The position numbers and the translations under genes are program-made. Source: Mesostigma viride (taxonomy: Eukaryota > Streptophyta > Mesostigmatophyceae > Mesostigmatales > Mesostigmataceae). From it: a stretch of 64,000 nt of DNA. Shown in pieces: positions 3,001-62,900 of this stretch. Each line of letters opens with the position of its first letter. Position 1 is the first letter of the stretch. The notes under the pieces were generated by a model. It made no database searches. It was given only the letters and a program-made list of their open reading frames with translations, and was not told where the DNA came from. The DNA lies in the NCBI GenBank assembly GCA_009746045.1, contig RPFO01000022.1, positions 4,006,622-4,070,621 on the forward strand, written 5' to 3'.

Positions 3001-3664
3001 GTCTTGTAGCCCACAAAGCCCATCTGGCGCGACTTGCCGTCCCTGCCAGGGTGGCACGCGCGCACAGTCAGCGAGGCGCCATTGCCACGCGTTGGATAGA
3101 GCAGGGGGATAACAACAAATAAACAAACGTGACAAAACTAAAAGACGTGTGTGTGTGTTTGCGTGCGCATGCGTGATTGTGTGAGTACACTACGCTACAG
3201 TGATTGGTGGCATGCAAGTCGCGGCAGAGGAAACATTACACTATACCAGTATACAAGCAAGGAACAGGTTCTATCATGTTCTATTCGATTCTGTTGCGAA
3301 CAACTCTGCAGTGAGCGCGGCCATCCCTCTCTAGGCCACGGATGCACGAATCCTTGTGCTCACTTTGTGCTTTTTTTTTCCCCCCCTTTCTTTACTATGA
3401 ACACGTGTTTATATTGAAATGATGAAATTGGAAAATGATGGCTCACTTTGTGCGGGTAGCTCGAGAGCCCATCATGTGGCCCATGCCCGTGCCCTCAAGC
3501 CTACAGTGAAAGTACAACTCTACAATGAACAGTTTACCCCTCGTGCTCACTTTGTGCGGATGATCCGTGCGTCGGTCACATGGCCCACCCCTGCGAAGTG
3601 TTCCCGGAAACGGGAATCCTGCAGGTGCCGCGGCAGGTTCTTGACGCAGATGCGCGAGCACTCC
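31..3664 (-). CDS. MRD1: RBM19/MRD1-type multi-RRM pre-rRNA processing protein, 5' part (partial)
   Basis: This family (Mrd1 in yeast, RBM19 in animals) binds pre-rRNA and U3 snoRNA in the nucleolus and is needed for 18S rRNA release. Three exons are modelled on the minus strand: 3664-3551, 3042-2928 and 1028-31, all GT-AG with matching phases. The first two join within a lysine codon to give a full RRM1 (SRICVKNLP at the start, RQMGFVGYK as RNP1, SYIDTSRLEVE at the end). The third holds PRPWSRYS, FKEFL, SDLDYLKS, a long Asp/Glu tract, a Lys-rich stretch and the start of the next RRM (SGRLFVRNLPYT); it ends at a GTGAGT donor, so later RRMs lie outside the window. The order of these short motifs matches RBM19/Mrd1. 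No RRM is seen between RRM1 and SGRLFVRNLPYT, which fits the five-RRM Mrd1 plan better than six-RRM animal RBM19. The initiating ATG exon was not found; the first visible exon needs two bases from upstream, which could make Met-Glu-Cys. Confidence 0.88.
1555..1890. repeat. Two minisatellites in RBM19/MRD1 intron 2
   Basis: From about 1555 to 1735 a 19 bp unit (core CACACGCTAAGCACCTGCC, variants with CAAGG or CTAGG) recurs about nine times. From about 1755 to 1890 a TATATACATCA-type unit recurs. Both lie in the 1.9 kb intron between the RRM1 exon and the acidic-domain exon. The rest of this intron (1029-1555 and 1890-2927) has no recognisable feature except a short GTTTAGGGTTTAGG telomere-like stretch near 2715 and degenerate repeats built on CCCTCCCACCGTTCCAGCAC at 2740-2870. 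Confidence 0.7.
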
Positions 3665-3911
3665 CTGTCGGCGGTGTGTCATGTCATGTTCGGAACATCA
3701 ACAACGAATCGCAAGGTTAATGGCACACCTTGGCAAGGCTAATTGCGCACTGCGGTAGGTCCTTGCCACGGATTAATTACAAGCACGTGTCAAGGGTGAC
3801 GCATGAGTGACTGCGACCGATACGCACGCACCTCCCCTGTGGGACATGCGTTTGGGACAAAATGGAGGGGTAGCAAGAGGCCAATGTGGATCAACCGCAG
3901 GTTCTCGGCAT

Positions 3912-59900: not shown

Positions 59901-62900
59901 ACCCCTGTCCTCCCCTCTCCTCCCTTCACGTACCACCCCTCGTTCTTCCCTCTGCTGCTCCCCGGCCCTGCCCTGAAAGGTTGTTGGCTTCTGAACATGT
60001 TGGCGCTTGCTCTCAGCACTAGGAATAACTAGCAGCTTAAAAGTTAGCTTTTTTTCTTAAATCTAAAAGTTTAGAAGTGTTTTGTTATGCTCTAAACAAG
60101 TTTCACATTAAAATTTAAAACATTGAAACATGCTCATCCTCCCCTTTCCATGCGACCCCTCCACAAGCCCGTGTGTGGACTCACCTCCTTTCCTTCCCTA
60201 TCCTTCCCCTCCTTCCGCTCCTTCCCCTCCTTCCCCTCCTTCCCCTCCTTCCCCTCCTTCCCCTCCTTCCCCTCCTTCCCCTCCTTCCCCTCCTTCCCCT
60301 CCTTCCCCTCCTTCCCCTCCTTCCCCTCCTTCCCCTCCTTCCCCTCCTTCCCCTCCTTCCCCTCCTTCCCCTCCTTCCCCTCCTTCCCCTCCTTCCCCTC
60401 CTTCCCCTCCTTCCCCTCCTTCCCCTCCTTCCCCTCCTTCCCCTCCTTCCCCTCCTTCCCCTCCTTCCCTCCTTCCCCTCCTTCCCCTCCTTCCCCTCCT
60501 TCCCCTCCTTCCCTCCTTCCCCTCCTTCCCCTCCTTCCCCTCCTTCCCCTCCTTCCCCTCCTTCCCCTCCTTCCCCTCCTTCCCCTCCTTCCCCTCCTTC
60601 CCCTCCTTCCCCTCCTTCCCCTCCTTCCCCTCCTTCCCCTCCTTCCCCTCCTTCCCCTCCTTCCCCTCCTTCCCCTCCTTCCCCTCCTTCCCCTCCTTCC
60701 CTCCTTCCCCTCCTTCCCCTCCTTCCCCTCCTTCCCCTCCTTCCCCTCCTTCCCTCCTTCCCCTCCTTCCCCTCCTTCCCCTCCTTCCCTCCTTCCCCTC
60801 CTTCCCCTCCTTCCCCTCCTTCCCCTCCTTCCCCTCCTCCCCTCCTTCCCCTCCTTCCCCTCCTTCCCCTCCTTCCCCTCCTTCCCCTCCTTCCCCTCCT
60901 TCCCCTCCTTCCCCTCCTTCCCCTCCTTCCCCTCCTTCCCCTCCTTCCCCTCCTTCCCCTCCTTCCCCTCCTTCCCCTCCTTCCCCTCCTTCCCCTCCTT
61001 CCCCTCCTTCCCCTCCTTCCCCTCCTTCCCCTCCTTCCCCTCCTTCCCCTCCTTCCCTCCTTCCCCTCCTTCCCCTCCTTCCCTCCTTCCCCTCCTTCCC
61101 CTCCTTCCCCTCCTTCCCCTCCTTCCCCTCCTTCCCCTCCTTCCCCTCCTTCCCCTCCTTCCCCTCCTTCCCCTCCTTCCCCTCCTTCCCCTCCTTCCCC
61201 TCCTTCCCCTCCTTCCCCTCCTTCCCCTCCTTCCCCTCCTTCCCCTCCTTCCCCTCCTTCCCCTCCTTCCCCTCCTTCCCCTCCTTCCCCTCCTTCCCCT
61301 CCTTCCCCTCCTTCCCCTCCTTCCCCTCCTTCCCCTCCTTCCCCTCCTTCCCCTCCTTCCCCTCCTTCCCCTCCTTCCCCCCCTTCCCCTCCTTCCCCTC
61401 CTTCCCCTCCTTCCCCTCCTTCCCCTCCTTCCCCTCCTTCCCCTCTCTCCCCTCCCCCCCTTCTCCTCTACCGCACCCCCGCCCCCCCCGGACCACCACC
61501 ACATTTTGTCCCCAGGTGCTCTTCTTCACCGACAAGGAGGAACAGCGCATGCGCCTCACGCGCCAGGTGTCAACGGCCGAGGCGCTCCGCGAGAAGTACA
61601 ACGCGCAGCTGCGGTCTGACGGCGCCACCCTCCAGGAGCTTAAGTTCCAGAGCCATGGCCGCAACACGGTGCTTGACACGCTGCAAGACGCGGTCGAGCG
61701 GGGCGAGCGCGAGGAGCTGCGGCGCATGGCCAGAGCCGAGAAGACCGAGCGGGTCGCGGGGCTGATGACCGCGGGGCTTGTGCAGCTCAACCAGCGGCTG
61801 CCAGCAGGTAACCTTTCTATCTAGTCTTTTCAAGTCTATACCTGGTATATGGTATGCAGGCTGCCAGCAGGTAATGATAGACTTGCTGGCGTGATTACAG
61901 GCAACAGGACCAGCGGCTGCCTTCGGGTAATTGGGATACTACCATCGTACCTGCCAGCAGGCAGATAGGATACTATTAGGCTGCCAGCATGTGATTTTAT
62001 ATCGCTAGGCTGCCGGCAGGTAATTTTTGTACGAGTAGGTAGTAGTTTATAGGCTGCCAGCAGGTAATATGATTTATAAGGCTGCCGGCAGGCAATTTGG
62101 TACTGGAATATACCTTTGTTTGGTCTAGTTATGGGCCACCATTCCAATATAATTAATTACTTATCCATGTACTGATGTACTAATAGTTGTAACATGTTTT
62201 TCATTTCAGCCAGCAATAGTCGTATGACCGCTAATCTCATTGCGGTTTCTCTTCCTTGCTGCCGCCTGCCCCTACATTCCTTCCTTGCTGCCACCTGCTC
62301 CCGCTTGCCCTTTCTCTCGCGCAGAGCTCCTCCCAGCAGAGCCGGTCATGCGCAAGTCGGCGGTGGCTGGTCTTCGCGAGCGCATCCAGCGCATGAAGGA
62401 GGCACAAGGAGCCGCCACCGCGCCCGCCACCCAGCAGCGCTCCCCACGTGACTCCCCCACCGCCACCACCACCGGCCCATCGCGGCAACTTGCCGCCACC
62501 CCCAATGGTACCTCCTCCCTGCCTGCGCCGTCCCCCCATGCCACCCCACGGTCCACCACCCCGCTGAACGGCCCCATCTCCCCCCCGGCCGCCAGCGCCA
62601 CCTCATCCGTGCCCACCGCCGCAGGTAACCCCGAGGACCTGCCCCATTCCCCCGGCACGACCGCGCTGGCCACTGGCGTGCCGCCACTTGGCGTCTCGGA
62701 CCCCGCCGACCCGTTTGCGGGCCTCTCGCACGGGCCCCCGGACGGCGCCTCGGGTGCCACCATGTTCTCCCCGGAGGCAGACTACCAGCTGCGGGCCGTC
62801 GTCGACGCCGTTCGGGAGATCCTCGCAAAGCTGACCCCGGTGGTGGATTTCCTAAAGTCCCACGAGCCCGACGGGGCCGTGGGCGCGGGGCGCGGCACGC

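Follow-up and report, generated by a model that had tools for sequence, protein, structure and literature searches.

The growth of introns in length is for the most part attributed to transposons and to unspecific slippage. Internal tandem repeats at exon–intron boundaries accompany 27 intron modifications in human duplicated genes (PMC2812944), and tandem repeats are enriched toward intron ends, most strongly in Chlamydomonas and Volvox (PMC3887541). Tandem genomic duplication using AGGT can generate a new intron between the two copies (PMC3443670), and introner elements tie repeated sequence to intron borders (PMC7789003). Here we describe introns of the streptophyte Mesostigma viride that contain copies of their own 5′ exon–intron junction, found in a 64,000-nucleotide stretch of DNA (the window) and recurring in other genes of the same genome. 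The boundary repeats of human duplicated genes are alike in that they straddle the boundary; their copies are removed as intron, as ours would be judging by sequence, but that report concerns recently duplicated genes, whereas here 44 of 108 introns are involved and the copies are donor-centred, mostly short and decayed (PMC2812944). Concentration toward intron ends is shared with the tandem repeats of PMC3887541, which lie toward both ends, with exon-end copying unmentioned in the visible portion of that text; in contrast, the copies described here include the exon end together with the donor and favour the 5′ side. The statement of an earlier sequence-only reading of this DNA that no known repeat class predicts the pattern was therefore too strong. 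AGGT duplication (PMC3443670) is also local and includes splice-site-like sequence, but our copies lie inside existing introns whose two borders are unmatched (window introns). Introners (PMC7789003) differ in that our introns have neither a shared element nor inverted ends, and the spacer beside the copy was single-copy in the tested case. A literature search of titles and abstract openings, with most subscription journals outside its reach, yielded no report of intronic copies of an intron's own donor at such a scale.

Three genes were rebuilt in the window from reading frames, splice consensus and homology, giving predicted models with 26 introns: 2 in RBM19/MRD1, 10 in MUS81 and 14 in an EF-hand coiled-coil gene. 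All 26 are in-frame GT–AG introns and the joined exons are open; the window genes carry spliceosomal-type introns, that is, they are eukaryotic. Pfam searches of the joined exons returned RRM_1, MUS81-like_WH, ERCC4, EME1-MUS81_C and EF-hands. MUS81 (14548..25978, plus strand; MUS81-like_WH, ERCC4 and EME1-MUS81_C) runs from an internal exon to the stop in 11 exons and 10 introns and matched a PDB MUS81 chain at 4.7e-14. The EF-hand gene (44932..64000, plus strand; Pfam) extends from about 44932 past the window edge, with 15 exons and 14 introns inside the window. On the minus strand, the exon with the RRM start (3551..3664; in-frame model, Pfam RRM_1), whose donor reads CGCACAAA followed by intronic GTGAGCAC, precedes intron 1 (3550-3043; in-frame model) of a gene that we take to be RBM19/MRD1, as did the sequence-only reading, Pfam giving an RRM. 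Rfam and tRNA scans found none, a search for relatives in viral and prokaryote contigs gave nothing useful, and no second copy (haplotype) of the MUS81 locus was found in the 440-Mb assembly of 2243 contigs.

Each donor window, comprising the last 20 exon bases and the first 12 intron bases, was matched against the remainder of the intron that it opens. Relative to 300 dinucleotide shuffles, 13 of the 26 window introns contained a same-strand copy of their own junction at p<0.01: RBM19 intron 1; MUS81 introns 1, 2, 5, 6, 7, 8 and 10; and EF-hand introns 6, 10, 11, 13 and 14. RBM19 intron 2 was borderline (p=0.047). The sequence-only reading had reported such echoes in about 14 of 29 introns in these three genes; the observation was confirmed, with 26 introns modelled and not 29. 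At a score of at least 13, own donors were echoed in 13/26 introns versus 1/650 for foreign donor windows (permutation p 5e-5), and the own reverse complement in 0/26. The shuffles, foreign donors and reverse complements together rule out chance as the source of the echoes. Seven alternative choices of window and scoring left 8–13 of 26 introns above the 1% foreign cut-off.

The copies are anchored at the junction itself. At a score of at least 13, windows were echoed in 50% of cases at the junction, 15% at +30 and 8–31% at 60–400 nt inside the intron, and on the exon side in 0/24 at −30 and in none deeper in the exon, agreeing with the earlier claim that copies span the junction rather than random exon parts. 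Donors were echoed more often than interior positions drawn at random, one from each intron (mean of the latter 0.213; P=0.0002), and acceptor windows treated in the same way were echoed in 2/26 introns at p<0.01 and in 3/26 when the threshold was p<0.05 (Fisher versus donors 0.0016). The signal was also polar: at the same score, exon ends recurred in the downstream intron in 8/26 cases and in the upstream intron in 0/26, exon starts in 0/26 upstream and 0/26 downstream introns, and exon interiors in 1/135 downstream and 0/285 upstream comparisons. Junction windows had no match in their own upstream exon in any of the 26 cases at a score of at least 11.

Sixty individual copies were counted in 14 window introns, an upper count because some array rows in MUS81 intron 5 and EF-hand intron 11 are register shifts, and 44 of these 60 keep GT, consistent with the earlier remark that many do. 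In RBM19 intron 1, one minus-strand copy contains the exact run CCGCACAAAGTGAGC (3441..3455) and another reads GCACAAAGTGAGCACAAGG with one mismatch (3352..3370). On the plus strand, MUS81 has two donor-region copies in intron 1 (14749..14800), a junction copy in intron 2 (16363..16390, with a weaker second copy at 16539-16585), a low-complexity ~19-nt array in intron 5, whose unit runs across the AATGACAG/GTGGGGTGG junction and which is followed by one later copy (19676..19915), the donor and intron start copied twice in intron 6 (20968..21042), the exon end copied twice in intron 7 (21952..22020) and the copy ACCGCGTGAGTGGAT in intron 8 (23506..23520). The clearest single duplication in the window lies in MUS81 intron 10 (25183..25220, plus strand), an 84-bp shift that takes in 24 nt of exon plus intron. 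The EF-hand gene, also on the plus strand, carries a junction-spanning ~71-bp array followed by dispersed copies in intron 6 (50147..51735; 11 copies counted), six copies of the junction with non-aligning spacers in intron 10 (54849..55183), a junction-spanning array in intron 11 (56397..56526), two copies in intron 13 (59019-59039 and 59128-59159, within 59019..59159) and seven copies of GGCTGCCAGCAG/GTAA spaced 28–63 nt apart in intron 14 (61859..62095). Acceptor-side echoes were seen in MUS81 intron 1, where the intron's own acceptor region CCCCGGGCGCAG is repeated 83 nt upstream (window 16058-16152), and at −130 in EF-hand intron 11.

Junction echoes recurred when kinesin, Cpn60/TCP1, dynein AAA_6 and SNF2 families were searched in the same genome. 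Of 295 family matches listed (129, 58, 44 and 64), 162 entered, hand-picked for contiguity in the profile; 60 stretches were fetched and 54 used, two pairs lacking a candidate. Between profile-contiguous exon matches 93 introns were modelled, of which a frame/gap filter dropped 11 before counting, leaving 82 in 48 loci. Own donors were echoed in 31/82 introns versus 36/6642 for foreign donors and 0/82 for the own reverse complement, so that self-junction matches exceeded both matches to other introns and matches to other exon segments (2/82 at −40). Along the profile, 2, 7, 10 and 23 of 82 introns were echoed at −40, −30, −20 and −10 on the exon side, and 31, 27, 18 and 12 at 0, +10, +20 and +30. 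The 31 donor echoes compare with 12.4 expected from interior positions, and across the window and the second set the donor rate was 2.3- to 2.5-fold the random intron-interior level, which acceptors did not exceed. Acceptors of the second set were echoed in 13/82 introns, equal to the interior level and far above foreign acceptors (29/6642). The near-absence of acceptor echoes in the window (2/26) is therefore not general, given this count and the copying of exon starts upstream in 10/108 introns. With both sets pooled, donors exceeded acceptors (44/108 versus 15/108, p=1.4e-5), and exon ends alone (−30..−4) were copied downstream more often than exon starts alone were copied upstream (22/108 versus 10/108, p=0.034).

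Across the 44 echoed introns, the best copy was about 30 nt long (quartiles 26–41; an underestimate wherever the extension stops at an indel, as in MUS81 intron 10 and second-set intron L020.1) and centred on the donor. It lay at a median distance of 107.5 nt, with length uncorrelated with distance (rho −0.09, n=44), and the exon sequence inside copies spanned 3–38 nt (median 19.5). Head-to-tail units were seen in EF-hand introns 6 and 11, MUS81 introns 5 and 10, and second-set introns L010.1 and L020.1; the two EF-hand introns hold tandem arrays of the junction unit, a gapped alignment runs over the whole 84-bp unit of MUS81 intron 10, making it a plain tandem, and a nearly complete unit is repeated in L010.1 and L020.1. 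Spacers of the first and second units were similar (p<0.01) in 14/44 echoed introns and not in 30/44. Homology across the whole unit is undetectable in these 30, so that a plain tandem structure is not established for the majority. Among 12 fresh-core copies, spacers were similar in 4 and not in 8 (p<0.01), two of the 8 showing weak similarity (p about 0.036), including MUS81 intron 10, tandem by gapped alignment. A fresh core stands beside an unrelated spacer in L066.0, L016.1, L034.1, L013.0, L042.0 and EF-hand intron 10, and the one spacer searched in the 440-Mb genome matched a single place, its own. Blastn between the 26 window introns found only two matches, of 19 and 22 nt, and comparison of the spacers of echoed introns with other introns only one, of 18 nt.

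We consider it moderately probable that the echoes record how introns lengthened through short local duplications across the 5′ splice site. Each event would duplicate, on the same strand, a segment around the donor that mostly measures 15–60 nt; some events would produce a plain tandem unit able to grow into an array and others two copies parted by unrelated spacer. The new copy and spacer would then become intron and the protein would stay unchanged, because splicing would still use the first donor in the cell; the copies, presumably neutral, would decay afterwards. In the window, the first donor is the frame-keeping donor and the copies lie in the intron after it. Duplication anchored at the 5′ splice site had been offered as one explanation by the sequence-only reading, and it is supported by echoes that are donor-centred, same-strand and confined to the own intron, that hardly ever derive from exon interiors, that exceed acceptor and interior levels, and that appear again in 31/82 introns, suggesting that such duplications arise preferentially at the donor.

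A donor-specific bias, mutational or selective, seems to exist, since uniform duplication predicts too few donor echoes; the data lean to a mutational bias but do not decide. When duplication was simulated as a neutral process acting uniformly, and exon and donor were kept unchanged, donors behaved much like interiors (donor/interior ratio 0.9–1.2 in the larger run), and none of 120 sets from six settings with interior levels of at most 0.23 reached 13/26. Three settings with interior levels of 0.30–0.40 reached it in 3/60 sets, and ratios in a smaller first simulation (60 introns per setting) were scattered between 0.5 and 1.9, so the donor excess may be partly model-dependent. The ratios of both runs also bear on whether old copies stay visible merely through conservation of the exon; acceptors share exon-side conservation yet show no peak in the second set. 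Donor-like motifs away from junctions scoring at least 8 were echoed in 16/66 sense and 24/89 antisense cases, the background level (0.25), indicating that the motif alone does not draw duplications. At a score of at least 7, sense non-junction motifs were echoed in 261/368 cases, 239 of these 261 lying in three array-bearing introns (mean per intron 0.16). Motif attraction away from junctions was thus rejected, with no excess at the higher score and the lower-score count stemming from three array introns.

Selection could instead keep extra intronic donors, either to act as decoys or to bind U1 and so shield long transcripts from early cleavage, which we judge distinctly unlikely. The 44/60 copies with GT kept would suit it, as would the finding that 19 of 32 donor-like sense sites scoring at least 8 in window introns are echoes and that, of the 44 GT copies, 13 equal and 3 exceed the authentic donor in strength; the other 28, however, are weaker. 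In 25 copies, one from each intron, that were located solely through their exon part, both GT positions matched at 0.84, versus 0.68–0.92 at the last three exon positions. The match pattern tracks constraint on the source sequence, and GT is retained at a rate similar to that of the exon bases beside it, giving no clear support for selection on the copied donor. U1 pairs with a few bases only, and the 3–38 nt of exon carried by copies reach beyond that span. This retention of GT also weakens the decoy role envisaged by the sequence-only reading, as does the outcome if the copies were used: translation would meet an in-frame stop with 41/44 of the window's GT copies, and in the second set, where 27/31 best copies have GT, 21/27 would do so and 2 are open and in frame. 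Non-echo donor-like sites in the 26 window introns numbered 13 sense versus 27 antisense at a score of at least 8 (Markov 27.9), 6 versus 16 at 9 (Markov 11.2), 67 versus 54 at 7 (Markov 55.7) and 111 versus 78 at 6 (Markov 92.3). The scarcity of sense sites at the two highest thresholds is suggestive only, hinting that a stray donor may be harmful if it is strong, whereas echoes persist. Nothing seen so far in these sequences would indicate a job for the copies. Recursive or nested splicing sites, also raised by the sequence-only reading, are very improbable: some EF-hand intron 14 copies read CAG/GTAAT and AG precedes GT in 7/13 echoed donors, but the exon ends in AA, CG, GC or CA in the other 6, where no AG/GT site is formed because AG is missing. 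Recursive splicing as a general reason was rejected on this count.

That the introns were gained by insertion (introner, target-site duplication) or through an AGGT segment duplicated in tandem is scarcely credible here. Direct repeats near intron borders have been reported in all of 213 introns belonging to several classes (PMC11782384), but in the window the 5′ border matched its own 3′ border in 0/26 introns at a score of at least 11 (mean 7.62 own versus 7.50 foreign), terminal inverted repeats reached a maximum of 9 in own versus 13 in foreign comparisons, and the 26 introns share no families beyond the two short matches above. Introner insertion, target-site duplication and AGGT gain were rejected on these border and shared-element tests, which cover the 26 window introns only. 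Copying might also be targeted to donors: breaks or slippage would occur at the 5′ splice site in connection with transcription or splicing and be repaired with a short direct duplication plus filler, so that 5′ splice sites are mutational hot spots; we regard this as fairly unlikely. It accords with the peak at the donor, which extends about ±20 nt in either set, the lack of a motif effect away from junctions at a score of at least 8, the fresh cores beside unrelated spacer, the single-copy spacer in the one case tested, and a copy length of about 30 nt that is independent of distance. Against it, no polymorphic or dated event was observed, copy length is underestimated where indels occur (MUS81 intron 10 and L020.1), and some of the cases need no more than simple tandem units. 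We tentatively raise the possibility that genes of this lineage have a mutational hot spot at the 5′ splice site, where short same-strand duplications arise in probable association with transcription or splicing, so that introns grow from the 5′ end as the junction is copied again and again. If the bias is mutational, splice donors would form one class of hot spot for duplication, and the growth of introns would be directional; if it is selective, spare donors would be kept in introns.

The window contains further repeats. An array of about 1008 ATGAAGG units spans 7 kb adjoining RBM19 (window 3913-10949), an 18-nt array of about 17 units lies in frame within a MUS81 coding exon (window 18415-18717), and a 1.26-kb array of TCCTTCCCC occupies EF-hand intron 13 directly before the acceptor (window 60191-61455). 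Interstitial TTTAGGG-type repeats occur in introns at window 24267-24319 and about 48977-49015. A retroelement at 34425-37451, with a partial copy at 38901-40252, has a 1008-aa open frame that by eye resembles a LINE-type reverse transcriptase; a 1-kb piece of it scored at 40 places in the genome, its own included, at about 100% identity, suggesting that the element was recently active.
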